NCBI RefSeq assembly: GCF_002930645.1
Contig: NZ_PSNW01000005.1
Location: 186,001-250,000 of the forward strand
Length of the DNA stretch: 64,000 nucleotides
Direction: 5' to 3'
Source of the DNA: Solimonas fluminis
Lineage (GTDB): Bacteria; Pseudomonadota; Gammaproteobacteria; Nevskiales; Nevskiaceae
In this document: piece after piece, positions 46,886 to 61,072 of the stretch
Layout: each line of letters begins with the position of its first letter
How positions within the stretch are numbered: position 1 is the first letter of the stretch
The notes under the pieces: generated by a model
Databases searched by the model: none
Told to the model about the DNA's origin: nothing
The model's input: only the letters and a program-made list of their open reading frames with translations
Program-made: the position numbers and the translations under genes

Positions 46886-47003
46886 GCGATGCCAGACCGT
46901 ATCTGCGGTCGCGAATACCGCATTTGCGGTGTCTTTCTTCAACGCGGCGTTCTTAATTCGAGTCACGCCAATCAGCGCCACTGAGCGTTAAGGAGTGACC
47001 CTC

Positions 47004-47222
47004 ATGTCTTCGCAGACCGCCGCCACGGCAGCACCGACCGAACACCGCATCCTGCGCCGCGCCGAGGTCGAAGCCAAGACCGGCTTCAAGCGCGCGCACA
47101 TCTACAGCCTGATGAAGGAAGGCAAGTTCCCCAAGGCGCTGCGCCTGGGCGTGCGCGCGGTGGGCTGGGACTCGGTGGAGATCGAACAGTGGATCGCCGA
47201 TCGCCTCAAAGAACGCGCCTGA
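47004..47222 (+). CDS. alpA: AlpA-family transcriptional regulator
   Basis: A 72-residue excisionase/AlpA-type DNA-binding protein. RAEVEAKTGFKRAHIYSLMKEGKFPKALRLGVRAVGWDSVEIEQWI is the MerR-like HTH and wing. ATG 47004 has AAGGAG 8 bases upstream. In related ICEs, AlpA controls the transfer genes or integrase and starts the parA-parB transcript. It is 40 bases ahead of parA, in the same operon. Confidence 0.9.
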   Translation: MSSQTAATAAPTEHRILRRAEVEAKTGFKRAHIYSLMKEGKFPKALRLGVRAVGWDSVEIEQWIADRLKERA

Positions 47223-47262
47223 CGCTTCTTCTCGGTTCATGCCATTCGACGAGGAGAAGCTC

Positions 47263-48129
47263 ATGCAGGTGGTGTCCATCATTTCGACCAAGGGCGGCGT
47301 GGGCAAAACCACGACGGCAGCCAACCTGGGCGGCTTCATCGCCGATGCCGGGCTGCGCGTGCTGCTGCTGGATCTGGACGTGCAGCCCACGCTGTCGAGC
47401 TACTTCACGCTGGACGTGCGCGCGCCCGGCGGCATCTACGAGATGCTGGCCTTCAACGAGCGGCGCATCGAGCAACTGGTGTCGCGCACCGCGATCGCGG
47501 GCCTGGACCTGGTGCTCTCCAACGACGACCGCGGCGAGCTGAACACGCTACTGCTGCACGCACCGGATGGGCGCCTGCGACTGCGCCATTTGCTGCCCGT
47601 CTTCCGCACGCACTATGACTTGCTGCTGATCGACACCCAGGGCGCGCGCAGCGTGCTGCTGGAGATGGCGGTGCTGGCGTCCGACCTGGCGCTGTCGCCG
47701 GTGACGCCGGAGATCCTCGCGGCGCGCGAGCTGCGGCGCGGCACGCTGCAACTGATCGAGGACATCGCGCCGTATCGGCACCTGGGCATCGAGCCACCGC
47801 CGCTGCGCCTGCTCATCAACCGCGTGCATCCGGTGTCGTCGAACGCGCGGCTGGTCCAGCAGGCGCTGCGACAGGTGTTCCAGGAACAGGCCGGCGTGCA
47901 GGTGCTGGACACCAACGTGCCGGCCATCGAAGCCTATCCGCGCGCTGCGACACGAGGATTGCCGGTGCACCGGGTGGAGTACCGGCGGCCGGCTGGGCGC
48001 ACGGCGCCCGCGGCGCTGGACACCATGCGCACGCTGGCCGGCGAGCTGTTCCCCGCGTGGCGGGAGCGCTTCGCGCTGGTCACCGGCCGGGCCGATGCGG
48101 GAGGGGCCAGCCATGGCGAGCGCACATGA
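47263..48129 (+). CDS. parA: ParA-family partition ATPase
   Basis: A 288-residue deviant-Walker P-loop ATPase that positions DNA with ParB. STKGGVGKTTTAANLGG is the Walker A motif with signature Lys, LLLDLDVQPTLSSYF is A', and DLLLIDTQGARS is Walker B. A variable C-terminus ends EERFALVTG-like. ATG 47263 has GAGGAG 6 bases upstream; an ATG at 47239 is possible. The 3' end overlaps the HicA-like gene by 17 bases. It stabilises the excised ICE during growth (family knowledge). Confidence 0.93.
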   Translation: MQVVSIISTKGGVGKTTTAANLGGFIADAGLRVLLLDLDVQPTLSSYFTLDVRAPGGIYEMLAFNERRIEQLVSRTAIAGLDLVLSNDDRGELNTLLLHAPDGRLRLRHLLPVFRTHYDLLLIDTQGARSVLLEMAVLASDLALSPVTPEILAARELRRGTLQLIEDIAPYRHLGIEPPPLRLLINRVHPVSSNARLVQQALRQVFQEQAGVQVLDTNVPAIEAYPRAATRGLPVHRVEYRRPAGRTAPAALDTMRTLAGELFPAWRERFALVTGRADAGGASHGERT

Positions 48130-48349
48130 ACTGGCGCGCGGCCGTGAACGGCTGCGCGCGCTGATCGAGTTCGCGCTGGGCGAAGGCTGGCGCGTGGTGC
48201 GCACGTCCGGCGGGCACCTGAAATTCACGAAACCAGGCTGCGCGTCGATCTACACCAGTTCGACTGCGAGCGACCACCGTGCCGACCGCAATGCCCGCGC
48301 GCAACTTCGCCGCGCCGACCGGCAGGCGCAGGAGAACGGCCGTGGCTGA
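48113..48349 (+). CDS. HicA-like small protein between parA and parB
   Basis: A 78-residue protein. The segment LIEFALGEGWRVVRTSGGHLKFTKPGCASIYTSSTASDH has the dsRBD-like layout of HicA mRNA interferases, including the conserved SGGH catalytic His. There is no HicB antitoxin gene next to it. It overlaps parA by 17 bases and the parB start by 8 bases, so it is translationally coupled to both. It may be a toxin whose antidote is elsewhere, or a repurposed RNA-binding member. Confidence 0.65.
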   Translation: MASAHELARGRERLRALIEFALGEGWRVVRTSGGHLKFTKPGCASIYTSSTASDHRADRNARAQLRRADRQAQENGRG

Positions 48350-49991
48350 GCTGACGCCGCAGGACATGGCTGCCAAGCTGCTGGCCACCGGCTTCGAGCG
48401 CAGCGGCCCTTCGGCCGCGACCTTGAGCGACCCCATCGCCGACACGCCGATGGTGGTGACGCTGGACCAGTTGCGGCCCTACGACCACGACCCGCGCGTG
48501 ACGCGCAACCCGGCCTATGCGGAGATCAAGGCGTCCATCCGCGAACGCGGGCTGGACGCGCCCCCCGCGATCACGCGCAGGCCGGGCGAGGCGCACTACA
48601 TCATTCGCAACGGCGGCAACACGCGGCTGGCGATCCTGCGCGAGTTGTGGAGCGAGACCAAGGAGGAACGCTTCTTCCGCATTGCGTGCCTGTTCCGCCC
48701 GTGGCCGGCGCGCGGCGAAATCGTGGCGCTGACCGGGCATCTGGCCGAGAACGAGCTGCGCGGCGGGCTGACCTTCATCGAGCGGGCCTTGGGCATCGAG
48801 AAGGCGCGCGAGTTCTACGAGCAGGAAAGCGGCCAGGCGCTGTCGCAGAGCGAACTCGCGCGGCGGCTGACTGCCGACGGCTATCCGGTGCCGCAGTCAC
48901 ACATCAGCCGCATGAACGATGCGGTGCGCTATCTGCTGCCGGCGATCCCGACGCTGTTGTACGGCGGTTTGGGCCGGCATCAGGTGGACCGGCTCGCGGT
49001 GCTGCGCAAGGCGTGCGAGCGCACCTGGGAGCGGCGTGCGCTGGGCCGCACCGTGGCCGTGGACTTCGCCACCTTGTTTCAGGACGTACTGACGCAGTTC
49101 GACACACAGCCGGACGACTTCTCGCCGCAGCGGGTGCAGGACGAGCTGGTGGGCCAGATGGCCGAGCTGCTGGAAGCGGACTACGACACGCTGGCGCTGG
49201 AGATCAACGACAGCGAAAGCCGCCAGCGTGCGCTGACCAGCGAACCAGCGGTGCCGACGCCACCGGCAGCGCCTGTCGTGCCTGCTGCTCCTCCCCCGCA
49301 GGTCTCCGCGCCTCAGCAGCCACCCGCCTCGTCTGTGCCGCGCGACGCCACGCCTCCGGCGCCAGCAGCGACACCGTCTGCATCGCCCGGAGCGCCGGAG
49401 GAACAGCACGGGCAACACGACGAGCGCCTGCAAGGGCACATCGTGACACCGGCACCGACCACCGAGCGCCTGCAGTCCATCCAACGGATGGTCGCGGACC
49501 AGCTCGGCGACAAGCTGCCCGACTTCGAGGCCGATGCGTTGCGTGCGATCCCCGTGCAGGTCGGCGGGCTCTATCCCATCTCGGATGTCTGGTACATCGA
49601 GCCGGGCCTGGACGTGCCGGATCGCCTGCGCGTGCATATCTCGCAGTTCGCTCGCGAGATCGCGGGGGAAGCGGCGGTGGGCGACCACATCGAAGCCAGC
49701 GATGGCGGCATCGGCTTCGTCTGCGTGACGCCGGCCGTGGGCCAGGCGAAGGCGCTCCCGGCGTTCGCGCGTGCGATGCTGACCCTGCTGCACGCGCTGA
49801 GCACCGCGCCGGCACCCGCGACCGGGCTGGACAGCGCGCGGCTGGCCGATGACCTTGGGCCGCTGCTGCATGGTCACGGCGGCTTGGTCACGCGCCTGAG
49901 CGATGCCGGGCTGGTAAAGCTGTTCCGTCTGCTGCGCCTGGCGCGTCGGCTGCTGGATCTGGAAGCCGGCGTAGCGAGCCAGGATTCCTGA
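48342..49991 (+). CDS. parB: ICE-type ParB-family protein
   Basis: 549 residues. The ParB N-terminal nuclease-like domain (about 40-130) has VTLDQLRPYDHDPRVTRNPAYAEIKASI and HYIIRNGGNTRLAILRELW. An HTH region follows (QALSQSELARRLTADGYPVPQSHISRMN, about 170-200). A long Pro/Ala linker (about 305-375) precedes a C-terminal dimer/accessory domain specific to ICE ParBs (TIGR03764 class). GTG 48342 is chosen because AGGAG is 7 bases upstream; upstream ATGs lie inside the HicA-like gene. It partners ParA. It is larger than chromosomal ParB (about 300 aa). Confidence 0.9.
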   Translation: MAELTPQDMAAKLLATGFERSGPSAATLSDPIADTPMVVTLDQLRPYDHDPRVTRNPAYAEIKASIRERGLDAPPAITRRPGEAHYIIRNGGNTRLAILRELWSETKEERFFRIACLFRPWPARGEIVALTGHLAENELRGGLTFIERALGIEKAREFYEQESGQALSQSELARRLTADGYPVPQSHISRMNDAVRYLLPAIPTLLYGGLGRHQVDRLAVLRKACERTWERRALGRTVAVDFATLFQDVLTQFDTQPDDFSPQRVQDELVGQMAELLEADYDTLALEINDSESRQRALTSEPAVPTPPAAPVVPAAPPPQVSAPQQPPASSVPRDATPPAPAATPSASPGAPEEQHGQHDERLQGHIVTPAPTTERLQSIQRMVADQLGDKLPDFEADALRAIPVQVGGLYPISDVWYIEPGLDVPDRLRVHISQFAREIAGEAAVGDHIEASDGGIGFVCVTPAVGQAKALPAFARAMLTLLHALSTAPAPATGLDSARLADDLGPLLHGHGGLVTRLSDAGLVKLFRLLRLARRLLDLEAGVASQDS

Positions 49992-50008: not shown

Positions 50009-50569
50009 ATGTCGGCACCGCACCCGCTCAACCAGGCCGTGATCGCCCAGGCCCTGCATGACCTGCGCAACGGCCAGTTGCGCCGCTGCAAGGCCATGGG
50101 CTTCGGTGAGGAGGAGCTGGATGCGCTGAAGCACCCAGAACTCGTGAGCATGCTGGTGAATGCCACGGTGTCGTGGTGTTCGGTGTCGGTGAACCGGGAA
50201 GTGTTGAAGCGGCTGCTGAGCCAGGTGCACGACGTGGAGCGGGAGATCGCCACGGTGGACCGCATGCTGCGCCTGGGGGCGAGCACGGAGATGGTCAGCA
50301 AGTTCTACGGCCTCACGCATCAGGAAGTGGCGCTGCGCCGCGACATCCTCGGGCTGCCCAAGCGTAAGGGTCGGCATCCGGTGCTCGACGAGGCGCAGGA
50401 CGTGGCCCTGTGGGAACGCTGGAAGGCCGGCATCACGGAGCGGCACATCGCACTGAACGACGACATGGCGATGCTGGCGCTGACCATGGACCTGGCCGAG
50501 GCCATGACCCTGCCCATGTCGGTGATCTGGTCGGCGATACGGAACTGGGTCGACCAGGGGCTGGTGTAG
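50009..50569 (+). CDS. DUF2857-domain ICE protein
   Basis: 186 residues. DUF2857 family, found almost only in ICEs next to parB. There are two helical segments and a central HTH-like region (DREIATVDRMLRLGASTEMVSKFYGLTHQEVALRRDILGL, about 75-112), suggesting DNA binding or a sigma-like fold. FlhC-like activators of ICE transfer genes in ICEclc (BisC) are DUF2857 proteins, so an activator role is possible (family knowledge, not shown here). 17 bases after parB. Confidence 0.88.
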   Translation: MSAPHPLNQAVIAQALHDLRNGQLRRCKAMGFGEEELDALKHPELVSMLVNATVSWCSVSVNREVLKRLLSQVHDVEREIATVDRMLRLGASTEMVSKFYGLTHQEVALRRDILGLPKRKGRHPVLDEAQDVALWERWKAGITERHIALNDDMAMLALTMDLAEAMTLPMSVIWSAIRNWVDQGLV

Positions 50570-50572
50570 GTC

Positions 50573-51766
50573 ATGACGACGGGCGACGCTCCACGGCGTG
50601 ATGGCCCGGTTGCGCTGTCGGCGTTGTTCGACGAGGCGCTGCGGCACCTTGAGCCGAAGGAACCGGCGCAGGGCACGGCGCCGAGCCAGGACGGCTTTCT
50701 CTACAGCGGCAACCGGCACGAGAGCGTGCCGCGCGCGTTGTTCTTCGACCGGCGCCTGACGCCGCTGGAGCGCAATGCCTGGCAGGTGTTCCGCCTGCAG
50801 CTCAACGACGACGGCGTGACCGCCTTTCCCACCTACGACCAGCTCCGCCCATATCTGGCGTCCATGCCCTGTGCGGCGCAAGCCTCGCACGAGACCGTGG
50901 CGCGCGCCTTGACGCTGCTGCGGCTGACGCGCTGGCTCAGCCTGGTGCGGCGGCGGCGCGATCCCAAGACCGGCCGTATCCAAGGCAACCTCTACGTGCT
51001 GCACGACGAACCGCTGTCACCCTTCGAGGCGATGCAGCTCGACCCGGACTACCTGGGCCTGGTGAGCCAGGCGCTCACGCACGCGGCGAAGGCGGTGCAG
51101 GTCGTGGGCATGAACACGCTGCGGGAGATCGCCGAAGACCCGCTGCTCAGCGGGCGCACGCTGCCGACCCGTCTGCAAGTGCTGGCGCAGCGCATGGCGC
51201 GGCATGGCTGGACGACGCCAGGTTATCCACAGGAGGGTGCGGACCACGAATCCGAAGAAGGCCAGGAAGCCCTTCTTCGGAATGCTGCGCGCCCGTCTTC
51301 GGAATCCGAAGCAGGACCGAAACCCGCGCCGGACGGCTCTCTTTGGATTCCGAAGGAGGACCGTACAGTACGTAATGATCGTATAAATGAAGTACGTACA
51401 GTACCGCGCGCGAGGGCCTTGCAGAACCTGCGGCTGCCCGAGCGTTTCCTGCGCTTGAAGGACGAGCAGCAGGCCGGCGCGCTGGTGGCGCTGCAGCAGG
51501 TGGACGAGGCGCAGAGGCAGGCCGTTCTCGACGAGTGGGCGGCACGCTGCCACAACAGCGCGGTACGCAACCCGGCCGGCTACCTGTTTGGCATCATCCA
51601 GAAGGCGATCCGCGGGGAGTTCAAGGCCTGGGCCGGAGAAAGTGCATCGACGCCGCCAGCGCCCCCGTCACCTGCGCCCTCGTCACCGCCAGCATCCCGT
51701 GCGGCTGATCCCGAGGTGGCACGTGCCTACCTGGCTCAGCTCCGAGAAGCCTTGCGTGATCGCTGA
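50573..51766 (+). CDS. STY4528-type pathogenicity-island replication protein
   Basis: 397 residues. The N-terminal part carries the family segment (about 40-150: RALFFDRRLTPLERNAWQVFRLQLNDDGVTAFPTYDQLRPYL), a winged-helix initiator-like fold. It then has a variable linker (about 220-285) and a C-terminal helical region (LPERFLRLKDEQQAGALVALQQVDEAQRQAVLDEWAAR...GYLFGIIQKAIRGEF). STY4528 proteins are considered replication or stability factors of SPI-7-like ICEs. The DNA encoding the linker is packed with inverted and direct repeats (51250-51410), reported separately. 4 bases after DUF2857. Confidence 0.85.
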   Translation: MTTGDAPRRDGPVALSALFDEALRHLEPKEPAQGTAPSQDGFLYSGNRHESVPRALFFDRRLTPLERNAWQVFRLQLNDDGVTAFPTYDQLRPYLASMPCAAQASHETVARALTLLRLTRWLSLVRRRRDPKTGRIQGNLYVLHDEPLSPFEAMQLDPDYLGLVSQALTHAAKAVQVVGMNTLREIAEDPLLSGRTLPTRLQVLAQRMARHGWTTPGYPQEGADHESEEGQEALLRNAARPSSESEAGPKPAPDGSLWIPKEDRTVRNDRINEVRTVPRARALQNLRLPERFLRLKDEQQAGALVALQQVDEAQRQAVLDEWAARCHNSAVRNPAGYLFGIIQKAIRGEFKAWAGESASTPPAPPSPAPSSPPASRAADPEVARAYLAQLREALRDR

Positions 51767-51772
51767 TGTTGA

Positions 51773-51789
51773 CTATCCCCAGGGGATAG
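51773..51789. promoter_or_regulatory. 17-bp palindrome, copy 1
   Basis: CTATCCCCAGGGGATAG is a perfect 8-bp inverted repeat around a central A. It lies 108 bases before the LOTUS gene, just after the STY4528-type gene. It recurs at 52808 and (one mismatch) at 54727, always ahead of a new transcription unit: a probable operator. Confidence 0.8.
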
Positions 51790-51896
51790 CTGGAACAAAC
51801 ACCCTTCCGCCGTGCTCGATTGCTGCCCGCCGAACGACAGGCGAAACTGTCGCCTGTGAATCAAACGAGGACAGCCACGCACGAGCCCGGCCAACG

Positions 51897-52757
51897 ATGG
51901 ATATGACGACTTTCCCCGTCACAAACGCACTGCAACCACTACAGCCAGACGTTCAGCGCTTGCTGGGCAGATGCCTGTTGCGCCTTCAACAATACGAGCG
52001 CCTCATGAAAGCCATCGTGGCCCACCACGAGATTTCAGGCCCGGCGCATTCGCTGGAGGCCATTCGCGCAGCGCGGATTGAAGATGCCGCGACCAAGACC
52101 CTGGGCACGTTGATCGGACAACTGTTTGGTTCGTATGTCGTCACCGATGGAAATGGCGGCGAGGAACGCGACGACGATCTTCCCGGCGACGTGATCTCCT
52201 TTCGCACGCGCGTGCAATTGAGCCTGTCTGCGCAGGACTACGCCAAGACCCAGGCCGACCTCAAAGACCTGGTATCGCTGCGCAACACACTGGTGCACCA
52301 CTTCATCGACCAGCACGATCTATGGACCGTGGACGGGTGCCGCGCTGCACAGGACGAACTCGGTTCCGCCTACACGCGCATCGATCAGCACTTCGAGCAG
52401 TTGCGCGGCTGGGCCGAGCACATGGATCAGGCGCGGCGCCTGGCAGCGGAATTCGTCCACTCGGATGTGTTCCACGACCTGGTGGTCAATGGCATCGCGC
52501 CGGACGGCACGGTGGACTGGCCGGCCGCCGGCATCGTTCGTGCGCTACGCGAGGCCGCCGCGCAGTTGGCCGTCGAGGGCTGGACACCGATCGCCGCCGC
52601 TGGCCGCTGGATCGCGGACCGGCATCCCGAGCAGCTTCCAGCCAATTACGGCTGCAGCAGTTGGCGGCAGGTGGTGCACGAGTGCCGCCTGTTCGAGCTT
52701 CGCTACCGTGAGGTGGAGGGGCAACGGGCCGCTTGGTACAGACCTCGCGAGGCGTAG
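51897..52757 (+). CDS. OST-HTH/LOTUS-domain protein
   Basis: 286 residues. The N-terminal half is mainly helical (LGRCLLRLQQYERLMKAIVAHHE; DLVSLRNTLVHHFIDQHD, HEPN-like in its RNTLVHHF, compare RxxxxH of HEPN nucleases). The C-terminal segment (about 225-280) is a LOTUS/OST-HTH winged helix: WTPIAAAGRWIADRHPEQLP and YGCSSWRQVVHECRLFELRY. LOTUS domains bind RNA (G-rich or structured). It stands between two palindrome sites as its own transcription unit, with weak GC shift. Function in the ICE is unknown. Confidence 0.75.
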   Translation: MDMTTFPVTNALQPLQPDVQRLLGRCLLRLQQYERLMKAIVAHHEISGPAHSLEAIRAARIEDAATKTLGTLIGQLFGSYVVTDGNGGEERDDDLPGDVISFRTRVQLSLSAQDYAKTQADLKDLVSLRNTLVHHFIDQHDLWTVDGCRAAQDELGSAYTRIDQHFEQLRGWAEHMDQARRLAAEFVHSDVFHDLVVNGIAPDGTVDWPAAGIVRALREAAAQLAVEGWTPIAAAGRWIADRHPEQLPANYGCSSWRQVVHECRLFELRYREVEGQRAAWYRPREA

Positions 52758-52807
52758 CCCCGCAACGCGGTCTCACCTCCGCGCGAGCCGCGAACAAGTC
52801 CGCCGAG

Positions 52808-52824
52808 CTATCCCCAGGGGATAG
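52808..52824. promoter_or_regulatory. 17-bp palindrome, copy 2
   Basis: Identical to copy 1 (CTATCCCCAGGGGATAG). With flanking G and C it makes a 19-bp perfect dyad (52807-52825). It lies 122 bases before the TIGR03761 gene. The bases after it (CCGGCACACACAGCCTTCCG) resemble those after copy 1 (CTGGAACAAACACCCTTCCG), so a longer module of about 40 bp is conserved. Confidence 0.8.
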
Positions 52825-52945
52825 CCGGCACACACAGCCTTCCGTGCGGAACAAACCGGGCGCGCATGGGCTGCGGTTTGTTGACTGACAGCCTTCCGGC
52901 CGATGCCGATACTGGCGACTCGCCCCTTCACCGCGAGTCGCTCTC

Positions 52946-53734
52946 ATGGCCAACGAACGCACAGAACCCCTGCAACTGAATCTCGGATCGCTGCGCAGCG
53001 CGATGTCGCTGACGCTGCACACGCACCACGCTTCGCGCATCTGGCACGGCCGTGCGCCGACCGAGGGGCGCCCCGGCATCATCGGTCTCAACGGCTTCAT
53101 CGGCGCCATGAACAAGATGAAGCGCGGCGCCGAGCAGGACGACCCGTACTCGGACTCGTGGATGTTGCGGATCGAGGACAAGCTCGCCGACACCAAGACC
53201 CGTCTGCAGACCCTGCGCGAACAGGTGGATCAGGCCTTGGCCGACGTGCCAGCGGCGCTGTCCCTGGGCGAGAACATGAACGTGCAGCCGGTGAAGCTGC
53301 CGCTGTTCGTGAACGCCCAGCTCGGTTTCATGGCGGTGTATCTGCTGGCCGACTACGACGACCTGGCACGCAAGCTCATCCTGGCGCACCACACGGCGCT
53401 GATCGACCGCAGCACCTTGGAGCGCTGGCTCAATGATGGTGCGCACGCGCTGCGCAGCCTGTTCTCGCTGGCCCAGCAGTACCGCTACTCGGGCACGACG
53501 CGCGACGACTTCGCGGCGAAGAACGCGGCGGCGCGAGCGGCGCTGGAGAAGTTCGGCGAGTTGCCGCAGGACGTGCTGGAAGGCACGCGCCGCTCGCGCT
53601 TCGCGCCACCCATCGCGCGGCGGTCGAACAAGCCCGGCACGCCGCCTGCTGCGCCTGCCATCGTGCCCGATGCGCAGGCTCCCACGGGTGGCGCAGCCGA
53701 TGGTGCCGCGGGCGATGAGGGTGCTGGCGCATGA
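52946..53734 (+). CDS. ICE protein of the TIGR03761 (PFL_4669) family
   Basis: 262 residues. TIGR03761 family. It begins PLQLNLGSLRSAMSLTLHTHHASRIWHGR, with the family motif GIIGLNGFIGAMNKMKRGAEQDDPYSD, a long helical region (about 85-180), and a Pro/Ala-rich tail (about 225-262). The function is unknown; it is invariably next to DUF3158, ssb and topB, suggesting involvement in ICE DNA processing. It overlaps the next gene by 4 bases (ATGA). Confidence 0.92.
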   Translation: MANERTEPLQLNLGSLRSAMSLTLHTHHASRIWHGRAPTEGRPGIIGLNGFIGAMNKMKRGAEQDDPYSDSWMLRIEDKLADTKTRLQTLREQVDQALADVPAALSLGENMNVQPVKLPLFVNAQLGFMAVYLLADYDDLARKLILAHHTALIDRSTLERWLNDGAHALRSLFSLAQQYRYSGTTRDDFAAKNAAARAALEKFGELPQDVLEGTRRSRFAPPIARRSNKPGTPPAAPAIVPDAQAPTGGAADGAAGDEGAGA

Positions 53735-54279
53735 CAGCATCGCCCCCTATCAGCCACTCCACGCGCTTCGTGGCGCTGGAACAGGCGGACTTCCAGCGGC
53801 TGGAACACGCAGGCTACCTAAAAGGCCTTTTACAGCCTTTTAAGGGTAAGGGGAGTCTGGAGACCTGGGCCAGCCAGTGCGCAGCGCTGCGCGACGACGT
53901 GATTGGCCTGGCGCAGCGGCGCGTGCTGCCCCAGGCGCGCGCCTATCCATTCAGTCTGCTCGACGTGCAACTGGCCCAGCAGGCCACTGGCGCAGGGACG
54001 ACCTTCCTGCGCTGGCGCAACCTCGACCGTTCCTCCATGGGCGTGGCGTTGTGGGAGGCCCTGCTGGCCAACCCCGCGACGCCGGCCTCGCTGATCGACG
54101 ATCTGTACGCGATCGAACTGCAGCGCATCGTGCTGAACATGCAGATCAGCCTGACCCACAGCATCGCCCGCCAAGCCCTGGAATGCGCCAACAAGGCCGC
54201 GCAGGCCGAAGCGGCTTACCTGCGGCGCGTCCACGGGCATACCGCATCCGTTCCACCCACCACCAAGGAGTCTCCATGA
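53731..54279 (+). CDS. DUF3158-family ICE protein
   Basis: 182 residues, mostly helical. VALEQADFQRLEHAGYLKGLLQPFKGKGSLETWASQCAALRDDVIGLAQRRVLPQARAYPFSLLDVQL is diagnostic. Three more helices follow, with no known catalytic residues. It overlaps both the TIGR03761 gene and ssb by 4 bases. In the same operon as TIGR03761, ssb; part of the ICE replication/processing module. Confidence 0.88.
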   Translation: MTASPPISHSTRFVALEQADFQRLEHAGYLKGLLQPFKGKGSLETWASQCAALRDDVIGLAQRRVLPQARAYPFSLLDVQLAQQATGAGTTFLRWRNLDRSSMGVALWEALLANPATPASLIDDLYAIELQRIVLNMQISLTHSIARQALECANKAAQAEAAYLRRVHGHTASVPPTTKESP

Positions 54280-54659
54280 GCACGCACTTCGTCGGCGAGG
54301 GCAACATCGGTTCTGCGCCGGACTACCGCGAATTTCCGAACGGCAACGACGAGCCACGCCGGCTGCTTCGCCTGAACGTCTACTTCGACAACCCGATCCC
54401 GAAGAAGGACGGCGAGTACGAAGATCGCGGCGGCTTCTGGGCGCCCGTGGAGCTGTGGCACCGCGACGCCGAGCACTGGAAGACGCTATACCAGAAAGGC
54501 ATGCGGGTGCTGGTCGAGGGCCGCACCGTGCGCGACGAATGGGAGGACGCCGACGAGAACGAGCGCGTGACGTTCAAGGTCGAGGCGCGGCGCGTGGGCA
54601 TCCTGCCGTACCGCATCGATTCGGTGGCGCTCAGCACCAAGCCGGCCGGCGGACAGTAA
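54276..54659 (+). CDS. ssb: ICE single-stranded DNA-binding protein
   Basis: 127 residues with an OB fold: FVGEGNIGSAPDYREF (N-terminal strand as in Ssb), RLLRLNVYFDNPI, FWAPVELWHRDAEHWKTLYQKGMRVLVEGRTVRDEW and TFKVEARRVGILPYRIDSV. It lacks the acidic DDDIPF-type C-terminal tail of canonical SSB, a feature shared by ICE-encoded versions. It protects single-stranded DNA during transfer or ICE replication. ATG 54276 overlaps the DUF3158 stop. Confidence 0.9.
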   Translation: MSTHFVGEGNIGSAPDYREFPNGNDEPRRLLRLNVYFDNPIPKKDGEYEDRGGFWAPVELWHRDAEHWKTLYQKGMRVLVEGRTVRDEWEDADENERVTFKVEARRVGILPYRIDSVALSTKPAGGQ

Positions 54660-54726
54660 TTCGCCCATCGCCGTTCCCCCGAGGGCGACTGTAGCAACCG
54701 TCATACGCCCGCGATGCACCAGCGAG

Positions 54727-54743
54727 CTATCCCAAGGGGATAG
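54727..54743. promoter_or_regulatory. 17-bp palindrome, copy 3 (one mismatch)
   Basis: CTATCCCAAGGGGATAG differs from the other copies at one base (7 of 8 pairs keep the dyad). It lies 211 bases ahead of topB in a 294-base spacer that shows no gene. Confidence 0.7.
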
Positions 54744-54953: not shown

Positions 54954-56969
54954 ATGCGCCTTTTCCTGTGCGAGAAGCCGTCCCAGGGCAAGGACATCGC
55001 CCGTGTGCTGGGTGCCGGTCAACGCGGCAACGGCTGCTACAGCGGCGCGGGTGTCGTCGTGACCTGGTGCATCGGTCATCTGGTAGAGGCGGTTCCGCCC
55101 GAAGGCTACGGCGAGCAATACAAGCGCTGGGCCATCGAGCAACTGCCCATTCTTCCTGAGCGTTGGCGTGTCGAGCCCAAGGCGGCGACCGCGGCGCAAT
55201 TCAAGGTCGTGCAGCAGCTCGTCGCCAAGGCGGGCGAGCTGGTGATAGCGACCGACGCCGACCGCGAGGGCGAGATGATCGCCCGCGAGATCATCGACCT
55301 GTGCGGCTACCGCGGGCCGATTCAGCGCCTGTGGCTGTCGGCGCTCAACGATGCGTCGATCCGCAAAGCGCTGGGTGCGCTCAAGCCGTCCGCCGAGACG
55401 CTGCCGCTGTATTTCTCCGCACTCGCCCGATCGCGCGCCGACTGGCTGATCGGCATGAACCTGAGCCGGCTGTTTACGCTTCTAGGTCGGCAGGCCGGCT
55501 ACACCGGCGTGCTGTCGGTGGGGCGCGTGCAGACGCCGACGCTGAAGTTGGTCGTGGATCGTGATCGCGAGATCGCGCGATTCGTCTCCATGCCGTATTG
55601 GGCCGTGGATGTGCTGCTATCCCATGCCGGCCGGTCCTTCACCGCGAGCTGGATACCGCCCGAAGGCAGCACGGATGCAGCGGGTCGCTGCCTTCAGCAG
55701 CCGGTGGCGCAGCAGGCTGCGGATCGCATTCGCGCGGCACGCGATGCGCAGGTCGTGTCGGTGGACACCGAGCGCGTGCGCGAGGCACCGCCGCTGCCAT
55801 TCGATCTGGGCACCTTGCAGGAAGTGTGTTCGCGTCAGCTCGGCCTCGATGTGCAGGAGACGCTGGACATCGCGCAGGCGCTGTACGAGACGCACAAGGC
55901 GACGACCTATCCGCGCAGCGACTCGGGATATCTGCCCGAAAGCATGCTCGCGGAAGTGCCGGCGGTGCTCGATGCACTGCTCGCCACCGATCCCAGCCTG
56001 CGGCCCTTGATCGGCCAGCTCGACCGCAACCAGCGTTCGCGCGCCTGGAACGACGGCAAGGTGTCGGCTCACCACGGCATCATCCCGACGCTGGAGCCCG
56101 CCAACCTGTCGGCCATGAACGAGAAGGAACTGGCCGTCTACCGGCTGATCCGCGCTCATTACCTCGCGCAGTTCCTCCCGCACCATGAGTTCGACCGGAC
56201 GGTAGCGCAGTTCTCGTGCGGCAGTCAGTCGCTGGCGGCCGTGGGCAAGCAGATCGCCGTCACCGGCTGGCGCGAGGTGCTGGCGACGCCGGGGCCGGAC
56301 GATGCCGACGGCGAGGATGCGCAGCGCAGCCAGGTGCTGCCGGCGCTGCATGCGGGCCTGTCCTGCCCGGTCGGCAAGGTGGATCTCAAGGCGCTGAAGA
56401 CGCTGCCGCCCAAGCCCTACACGCAGGGCGAGCTGATCAAGGCCATGAAGACTGTCGCCAAGTTCGTGACCGACCCGCGGCTGAAACAGAAGCTGCGAGA
56501 TACCACAGGCATCGGCACCGAGGCGACACGCGCCAACATCATCAACGGTCTGATCGGTCGCGGCTACCTGGTCAAGAAAGGCCGCGCCGTCCGCGCTTCC
56601 GACGCGGCATTCACGCTCATCGACGCGGTGCCCTCGGCCATCGCCGACCCCGGCACCACGGCGGTGTGGGAGCAGGCGCTGGACATGATCGAGGCCGGCC
56701 AGATGGCGCTGGACACCTTCATCGAGAAGCAGTCCGTGTGGGTCGGCCAGCTCGTGCAGCAGTACCGCGGCGCAACGCTCTCGCTCAAGCTGCCGCCGGC
56801 GCCGGCCTGCCCGCAGTGCGGCGCACCGATGCAGCAGCGCACGGGCAAGAGCGGCGCGTTCTGGTCCTGTTCGCGCTACCCGGACTGCAAGGGCACGTTG
56901 CCGATCGAGTCCCCGACGGGCCGGCGCAGCGCACCGCGCAAGCGGCGCGCTGCCTCCAAGGCGTCCTGA
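54954..56969 (+). CDS. topB: DNA topoisomerase III (ICE-type TopB)
   Basis: A 671-residue type IA topoisomerase that passes single strands. The TOPRIM domain is N-terminal: MRLFLCEKPSQGKDIARVLG (Glu7) and ATDADREGEMIAREI (about 99). GRVQTPTL follows. The active-site Tyr319 is in TTYPRSDSGYL. At the C-terminus is a zinc-ribbon topoisomerase finger (CPQCGAPM...CSRYPDCKGTLP, about 619-650). It has the same family as TraE/TopB of plasmids and decatenates transfer or replication intermediates. It is preceded by palindrome copy 3, so it may be expressed separately from ssb. Confidence 0.96.
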   Translation: MRLFLCEKPSQGKDIARVLGAGQRGNGCYSGAGVVVTWCIGHLVEAVPPEGYGEQYKRWAIEQLPILPERWRVEPKAATAAQFKVVQQLVAKAGELVIATDADREGEMIAREIIDLCGYRGPIQRLWLSALNDASIRKALGALKPSAETLPLYFSALARSRADWLIGMNLSRLFTLLGRQAGYTGVLSVGRVQTPTLKLVVDRDREIARFVSMPYWAVDVLLSHAGRSFTASWIPPEGSTDAAGRCLQQPVAQQAADRIRAARDAQVVSVDTERVREAPPLPFDLGTLQEVCSRQLGLDVQETLDIAQALYETHKATTYPRSDSGYLPESMLAEVPAVLDALLATDPSLRPLIGQLDRNQRSRAWNDGKVSAHHGIIPTLEPANLSAMNEKELAVYRLIRAHYLAQFLPHHEFDRTVAQFSCGSQSLAAVGKQIAVTGWREVLATPGPDDADGEDAQRSQVLPALHAGLSCPVGKVDLKALKTLPPKPYTQGELIKAMKTVAKFVTDPRLKQKLRDTTGIGTEATRANIINGLIGRGYLVKKGRAVRASDAAFTLIDAVPSAIADPGTTAVWEQALDMIEAGQMALDTFIEKQSVWVGQLVQQYRGATLSLKLPPAPACPQCGAPMQQRTGKSGAFWSCSRYPDCKGTLPIESPTGRRSAPRKRRAASKAS

Positions 56970-57548
56970 TCCTCGCTTCCCCCTGCCGCGCCGGCCACTT
57001 CACTGGCGGCGAGGCAAACGTCCCGCACCGCGCGGGACTCCAAAGCGCGCGTCTCCTTCTGCAACGGTGTGCGCGCCCCGTCTGCCCGCCGTCGGGCGAC
57101 GGGGCGAGAAGGTCATTGCTCCACGAATCGCGCCCGCCGCCATTCCCTTGATCGGTGTGCCTTGCCTCGGTCACGAGGGGCTTCCTGACGCCTTGCCGCC
57201 GCGCGAGCCGTGAGGAGGCCCCTTGGGCCGAGGGTATTCCGTGCCGGTGCCCGCCGGCGAAACATCGGGCTCCCTTTGTGTGTGGATGCACGCCAGAGGT
57301 TTCCGGCCCCAGCCACGAAACGGGCCGGGTGCGATTGCTGACGCAGCGAACGGCTTTGACGACGGCCTGCGCTGACGCAGCCCACAGGTGGTTTTCCATT
57401 CTCTTCAGCCGAAGGCCCGTGTGGCCTTCGGCGCCCTGGTCTTTGCCTTGTCCCGTGACGCGGGCCATTGCCCTAAAGCGGGCCGTCCGCGATTCGGTTT
57501 TCCCTGCGACGGCAGCCATGCTTCGCGCCCATCCTCACGCCATGCGTT
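56970..57548. other. Gene-poor spacer downstream of topB
   Basis: About 580 bases. A hairpin GTCCCGC/GCGGGAC (57020-57038) follows topB. Beyond it are open frames on all strands with no family resemblance and without good ribosome sites, so I call no gene. The dispersed repeat described next ends the spacer. Confidence 0.5.
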
Positions 57549-57612
57549 GCTGACAGTCGTCAGCGGCATGCCCTGGCAGTCTCGGTCTTCAAGACTGCAA
57601 CGCGGTTCGCCG
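57549..57612 (+). repeat. Dispersed ICE intergenic repeat, copy A
   Basis: Reads GCTGACAGTCGTCAGCGGCA then TGCCCTGGCAGTCTCGGTCTTCAAGACTGC... with two small dyads (GCTGAC/GTCAGC and CAGTCT/AGACTG). Related copies are at 59491-59553 and 61011-61072. Each precedes a small ICE gene by 100-170 bases. Confidence 0.75.
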
Positions 57613-59414: not shown

Positions 59415-59490
59415 CGCGGAACGCGGTGCCGGCGCATTGCCGATTCCCAACGGACGGTCGCCGCCATGTGCCGCACGCTGGCCGCATGTT

Positions 59491-59553
59491 CGCTGGCGTT
59501 GCCGGCAGCATGCCCAGGCAGTCGAGACCTTCAAGACTGCGGCGCGGTTCGCC
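59491..59553 (+). repeat. Dispersed ICE intergenic repeat, copy B
   Basis: Contains GCATGCCCAGGCAGTCGAGA then CCTTCAAGACTGCGGCGCGG and TTCGCC, matching copies A and C. Its first dyad is degenerate. Confidence 0.7.
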
Positions 59554-60930: not shown

Positions 60931-61010
60931 CCCGGCAATGCGGACAGCCGCGAGTGCCGATTGCCGCTCGCCTGCGCGCCGTCCCGGCGCGACGCTTCCG
61001 GCCATGTTCC

Positions 61011-61072
61011 GCTGACGTCCGTCAGCGACATGCCCAGGCAGCCACGATCTTCAAGGCTGCGACGCGGTTCCG
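61011..61072 (+). repeat. Dispersed ICE intergenic repeat, copy C
   Basis: GCTGACGTCCGTCAGCGACA then TGCCCAGGCAGCCACGATCT and TCAAGGCTGCGACGCGGTTC; both dyads are retained. It lies in a 343-base spacer that carries no gene. Confidence 0.75.

Follow-up and report, generated by a model that had tools for sequence, protein, structure and literature searches.

In ICEclc, an integrative and conjugative element (ICE), the proteins BisD and BisC act together as activators of three promoters, those of inrR, int and alpA (PMC7423338; PMC9286271), and BisDC is sufficient for promoter activation without parA (PMC7423338). BisD of ICEclc is described as a ParB recruited to gene activation, through which horizontal transfer is switched on. 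Later work presents it as a ParB-like cytidine triphosphate (CTP) clamp, sliding in one direction from bisS boxes and acting with BisC as a coactivator of core promoters (PMC13393423; PMC13098234; PMC12704722). Here we analyze a 64,000-nucleotide stretch of the Solimonas fluminis genome (contig NZ_PSNW01000005.1, positions 186,001 to 250,000; hereafter the window), in which an ICE of the ICEclc type carries three copies of a short palindrome between its genes. The bisS boxes and the BisD-CTP clamp are reportedly treated, for ICEclc, by Antar et al. 2025 (gkaf802). Based on sequence comparisons across related elements, we consider it highly probable that the three palindromes are parS-like loading sites, or bisS boxes, for the ICE's own ParB-family BisD.

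Copies 1 and 2 of the palindrome (51773..51789 and 52808..52824) both read CTATCCCCAGGGGATAG, and copy 3 (54727..54743) reads CTATCCCAAGGGGATAG, with one base changed; none is assigned a strand. All three are intergenic and fall within 3 kb, at successive spacings of 1035 and 1919 bp, and they precede the ATG of a LOTUS gene (51897) by 107 nt, that of the TIGR03761 gene (52946) by 121 nt and that of topB (54954) by 210 nt. These positions bear out an earlier, sequence-only reading of this DNA, which had described two identical copies and one with a single change, always in spacers and about 108-211 bases before a start. The likeness that it saw after copies 1 and 2 is also real, as the flanks on the + strand (51790..51809 and its duplicate, 52825..52844) extend the match to 37 nt including the palindrome, at 89% identity. 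With up to 3 mismatches allowed, dinucleotide shuffles of the window predict 0.07 matches by chance; the observed number was attained in 0 of 100 shuffles. A search of the whole 4.67-Mb genome found no further copy at up to 1 mismatch, the next-nearest matches having 2 mismatches and lying on another contig, and any match at all was present in 6 of 274 genomes drawn from the class, in 4 genera. We did not find the palindrome sequence in print in the literature searched.

The sequence-only reading had made conservation between related ICEs a test of the motif, and the palindrome proves conserved. A search with the TIGR03761 protein yielded 80 close-relative loci. The promoter-proximal palindrome was kept (at up to 2 mismatches) in 64 of these and the palindrome before topB in 70, 74 loci being of sufficient length for a judgement, most relatives having intact the copy that is one base off the common form in the window. 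Conservation across relatives was 97-99% in the palindrome (99% in the arms), as against about 50% in the 40 bp upstream and 71% in the 60 bp downstream. In most close relatives copy 2 has the same offset, -138 relative to the TIGR03761 start. The centre base is mostly A or T, so the site is usable in both orientations, as for a dimer site in DNA.

To the sites and their conservation this analysis adds their covariation with BisD. We aligned the four proteins present in all elements used, BisD, BisC, STY4528 and TIGR03761, from 45 elements, 37 of which were left once near-duplicates had been removed, giving 1058 variable columns; AlpA does not occur in every element. Columns were scored by weighted, corrected mutual information against half-site bases numbered 1-8 toward the centre, and residues are numbered as in the window BisD (the L018 column minus 19). 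The best column for each of the eight bases fell in BisD, and six of the eight lay inside its helix-turn-helix (HTH; about residues 188-240, 48840..48998 on the + strand) in outer-to-inner order: S191 for bases 1 and 2, Q206 for base 3, R211 for base 5, V216 for base 7 and H234 for base 8. Six HTH columns of eight were unmatched in 480 permutations, including those within clusters of related elements, where the maximum was 3. In an identity-based test S191 ranked first of 8992, higher than in all 300 permutations. Site sequence and recognition helix of the BisD HTH change in step, which suggests that the palindrome is read by the same element's BisD and strongly supports the ParB site that the sequence-only reading had listed as one option. 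No column of STY4528, BisC or TIGR03761 was best for any half-site base among the 1058, and on that basis none of the three is favoured as the binder; BisC, the DUF2857-type regulator of that same reading, shows no covariation comparable to that of BisD. A signal in the BisD C-terminal region from a first window scan was also dropped, as it was a gapped split between two deep clades.

The covariation takes the form of a simple code. Wherever base 3 is A, the Q206 position holds Gln, without exception among the classes (CTATCCCC, CTATACCC, TTATGCCA, TGATGACA, TGATGGCA, TGATTACA, TGATTCCA and TTATTACA), and a G accompanies Arg or His, again in all classes (CGGTCCCC, TGGCCACA, TGGTCACA, TGGTTACA, TGGTGCCA, TGGTCCCC and TGGGGCAC); T occurs mostly with other residues, and Ser or Asn accompanies C. 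For base 5 the partner is the R211 position, where Gln goes with T and Arg with G. A close clade offers a natural switch: 13 of its loci carry Q206R (QRSHITRM), and in those with a clear site CGGTCCCC replaces CTATCCCC before the inrR operon. Elements outside the comparison set agree with the code as well, namely L126 (Gln, Arg: GTATGCCC), L123 (His, Gln: one arm TGGTTACA), L153 (His, Arg: one arm TGGTGACA) and L170 (like L167: TGTTGC).

Chromosomal ParB and Noc offer a precedent, with inverted repeats (parS and NBS) read by the ParB HTH, where residue 173 specifies base 1 (Arg-G, Gln-A) and residue 201 specifies base 6 (PMC7383237). Q206 with base 3 and H234 with base 8 show the same pairing at the outer specificity base and the same offset to a second contact, 28 residues and 5 bases on. 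Both the Gln-A and Arg/His-G code and this spacing fit the ParB/Noc specificity residues, which would place specificity at known ParB HTH positions. Like parS, the palindrome is a dyad-symmetric inverted repeat in multiple copies near parAB; unlike chromosomal parS and NBS, it is odd, with one centre base, has another sequence, is borne on an element and faces a longer HTH turn. We did not find a residue-level code across this superfamily described in the literature searched, and propose it here from the alignments.

Several points weigh against BisD as the reader. The sites were selected by eye from palindrome lists, although before the HTH was examined, and bases 4 and 6 peak in BisD but outside the HTH. 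A poor fit to the code is seen in ICEHin1056 (His with T at base 3) and in the GTGTCGAA group (L117, L160, L162). Loci of the Q206R clade (L074, L085, L092, L094) retain CTATCCCC or TTATCCCC in their topB copy, some 1.9 kb past the TIGR03761 start; this copy may be tolerated, recently acquired or in another role. The AlphaFold model of BisD is poor (mean predicted local distance difference test score 55), Foldseek gave nothing useful with it, and a phmmer search of BisD against the PDB returned a weak KorB match alone (E 0.078). Finally, the palindromes are likened to bisS through descriptions in other papers rather than by sequence or copy number.

The genes around the palindromes belong to an ICEclc-type element and make up its block for regulation and DNA processing. 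All on the + strand, they comprise an alpA homologue (46995..47222, assigned by position and AlpA-like sequence, with an AlpA gene annotated at the same place in L098), parA (47239..48129), the bisD homologue (48279..49991; ParB family TIGR03764, 570 aa), whose product is the predicted palindrome binder, a bisC homologue (50009..50569; DUF2857), whose counterpart is the partner of BisD in ICEclc (PMC7423338), a gene of the STY4528 family (50573..51766), the LOTUS/OST-HTH gene (51897..52757), TIGR03761, also called PFL_4669 (52946..53734; Pfam AcaB), a DUF3158 gene (53731..54279), ssb (54276..54659) and topB (54954..56969). The ICE runs on to traD, a TraC ATPase gene and mobH, then the integrase at contig position ~300000. 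The order alpA-parA-x-bisD-bisC-STY4528-TIGR03761-inrR-ssb-topB is that of ICEclc, as are the ParB-like BisD, its BisC partner and the promoter core before the inrR operon, and the palindromes lie beside bisD-bisC as expected of bisS boxes; unlike ICEclc, this ICE has a LOTUS gene inserted between two of its boxes. Judged by gene order, inrR has its counterpart in the DUF3158 gene and ICEclc ORF95213 in the TIGR03761 gene, first in the operon. Elsewhere in this region, the bisR-alpA spacer (46895-46935) holds the near-repeats ccgtatctgcggt and ccgcatttgcggt, a candidate site for a regulator of the alpA promoter. A 70-nt repeat occurs three times between the ICE genes that follow (57539-57608, 59481-59550 and 61001-61070), its copies 69-80% identical to the reference copy and holding GCAGTCTCGGTCTTCAAGACTGC-like inverted repeats, and is possibly another shared regulatory or terminator element.

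In ICEclc the ORF95213 transcript begins 25 nt before the start codon, with TTGACT at -35 and TGTCGATCCT at -10 (PMC2892462). Compared through this published text, a PinR-type promoter in the window (TTGACT-17-TGCCGATACT; 52881..52913, + strand) matches the -35 and -10 reported for the inrR transcript; both boxes are conserved, and copy 2 ends 56 bp before the -35. A promoter-proximal role for the palindrome is plausible at the inrR operon and before topB, and to that extent the operator/promoter module of the sequence-only reading stands. Its wider proposal, a shared operator defining an ICE regulon, does not: the genome search found no copy at the alpA region, type IV secretion system genes, mobH or int of the same ICE. 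We dropped the regulon-wide operator, there being just three copies within 3 kb. That the boxes precede operons, and that Pfam names TIGR03761 as AcaB, a transcriptional regulator, might still recommend a general operator bound by BisC, AlpA or TIGR03761/AcaB, but with those regions bare and neither BisC nor TIGR03761 ever the best covarying protein we regard it as very improbable. The ICEclc transfer-competence promoter motif is 27 bp and occurs at alpA, int, traI and other late promoters (PMC9286271), and the palindrome, judged by location alone, is absent at the corresponding promoters of this ICE. An RNA hairpin in the leader, an attenuator or terminator, is exceedingly improbable: the inverted repeat could fold, but copy 2 precedes the promoter, beyond the type of transcript that was mapped, a hairpin loop would have to be very tight and a T-run is absent after the palindrome.

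Copy 1 had been read as a site of the LOTUS gene, a view that the relatives contradict. The DNA between copies 1 and 2 differs among them, comprising other genes or just 68-140 bp, and the LOTUS gene is therefore a cassette inserted between neighbouring boxes. Copy 1 is a member of a box pair flanking an insertion spot, not a private promoter site of that gene. Accessory genes in the spot (equivalent to window 51790-52807) include the LOTUS gene, a RES/Xre toxin-antitoxin pair, a RelB antitoxin, PLD-nuclease-like (DrmC-like) genes and a histidine kinase-like gene (L021, L022, L026, L037, L038, L040, L041, L043, L051, L055, L057, L059, L062, L063 and L065).

A more distant set was drawn from plasmids with a DUF2857 gene and genomes with TIGR03761, and included pKLC102, ICEHin1056, SGI4, Pantoea and Serratia plasmids and many chromosomal ICEs. 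Most of these elements have perfect odd palindromes of different sequence at the same place, ~55 to 450 bp before TIGR03761 and, in arrays, up to ~1 kb before it. pKLC102 repeats GTGGTGCCACTGGCACCAC at 57-bp spacing, a Serratia plasmid repeats TGTTGCCACTGGCAACA at 36-bp spacing, ICEHin1056 has TGTAAAGGGGCTTTACA, and others have GTGGTTACAGTGTAACCAC, GTGATGGCAGTGCCATCAC or GTGTCCACAGTGTGGACAC. Both arms are altered symmetrically, and this joint change is as expected for a dimer site. In a few of the most divergent elements we saw no palindrome upstream of TIGR03761.

These arrays raise the possibility that the palindromes are remnants of replication-origin (oriV) iterons to which a replication protein, for instance STY4528, would bind. 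In PFGI-1 the putative oriV has been assigned to the stretch upstream of PFL_4669 and has 46-bp repeats, each with a 21-bp inverted repeat (PMC2647930), the ICEHin1056 stretch is likewise called a putative oriV (PMC2258188), and tandem arrays with 36- or 57-bp spacing occupy this place in pKLC102, P. veronii, SGI4 and Serratia. Position and inverted-repeat architecture are shared with pKLC102, PFGI-1 and ICEHin1056 (PMC2647930, PMC2258188); unlike those tandem arrays, called iterons, the window has three dispersed single copies, one of them before topB. Moreover, covariation ties the sites to the BisD HTH and not to STY4528, and STY4528 genes have a separate repeated palindrome of their own, TTCGGAWTCCGAA, mostly at 44-bp spacing. 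We consider an iteron origin improbable. The TTCGGAWTCCGAA palindrome lies inside the STY4528 gene of the window at 51298-51310, with a second, degenerate copy near 51342; in the STY4528 genes of relatives, pairs stand exactly 44 bp apart in 70 cases, and some other clades have TTCAAAATTTGAA instead. In this it is like the iterons within the O initiator gene of phage lambda, and it makes up half of the putative oriV of PFGI-1.

A partition role would involve the same binder and is compatible with BisD loading for that reason; the boxes may double as a centromere. That partition is the main role, with the palindromes a parS centromere through which ParA and BisD keep the excised ICE and transcription secondary, strikes us as possible but doubtful. 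parA belongs to the same gene run, the site arrays on plasmid-living relatives resemble centromeres, and several genomes hold 2-4 such ICEs of different site types, as partition incompatibility would predict; yet ICEclc BisDC activates promoters without parA (PMC7423338), and copies 2 and 3 lie close to operon starts. IncC plasmids also have parS sites near transfer-activator sites, upstream of AcaCD-dependent promoters, although these number ~14 copies over the plasmid, are longer and different, and belong to a plasmid system (PMC10954446). Among genomes with several such ICEs, site types often differ (counts without statistics): G510 has four ICEs (L145, L147, L150 and L157) and four site types (TGATTCCA, TGGTTACA, TGCTGACA and CTATCCCC), further cases are L116/L118 (G366) and L159/L160 (G632), and, contrary to the usual difference, G247 has two ICEs with like sites.

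For the palindromes as BisD loading sites, a reading that follows from the covariation of the half-site with the BisD HTH, we infer that this BisD binds the palindrome, clamps, slides and activates in this element. A BisD dimer would read the 17-bp inverted repeat through its HTH, with predicted contacts from S191 to the outer bases, Q206 to base 3 (A), R211 to base 5, V216 to base 7 and H234 to base 8. From the palindromes it would probably close as a CTP-dependent clamp, slide along the ICE and, with BisC (DUF2857), co-activate transfer-competence promoters. The first target may be the inrR-operon promoter ~57 bp downstream of copy 2, with a topB promoter after copy 3 a possible further one. 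Since a clamp can travel, three boxes in one place could serve a regulon whose other promoters have none.

A broader proposal, toward which we lean with some reserve, extends one simple code to the whole SPI-7/PAPI-1/ICEclc/ICEHin1056 superfamily. Every ICE and plasmid in it would have a BisD-type ParB that uses this code to read a palindrome before TIGR03761, and the sites would have diverged into over 20 types, preventing interference between elements in the same cell. If so, the oriV-iteron repeats of pKLC102, PFGI-1 and ICEHin1056 would be ParB loading arrays, a link to repeats annotated elsewhere as oriV that is added here. Knowing the BisD sites and the residues that read them would allow the transfer switch to be predicted from sequence for hundreds of elements, and the code offers a clear test by single-residue exchange. 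Together our results suggest that the repeats of related islands long annotated as replication origins are loading sites for a protein of this kind, and suggest a way for several related ICEs to share one cell.

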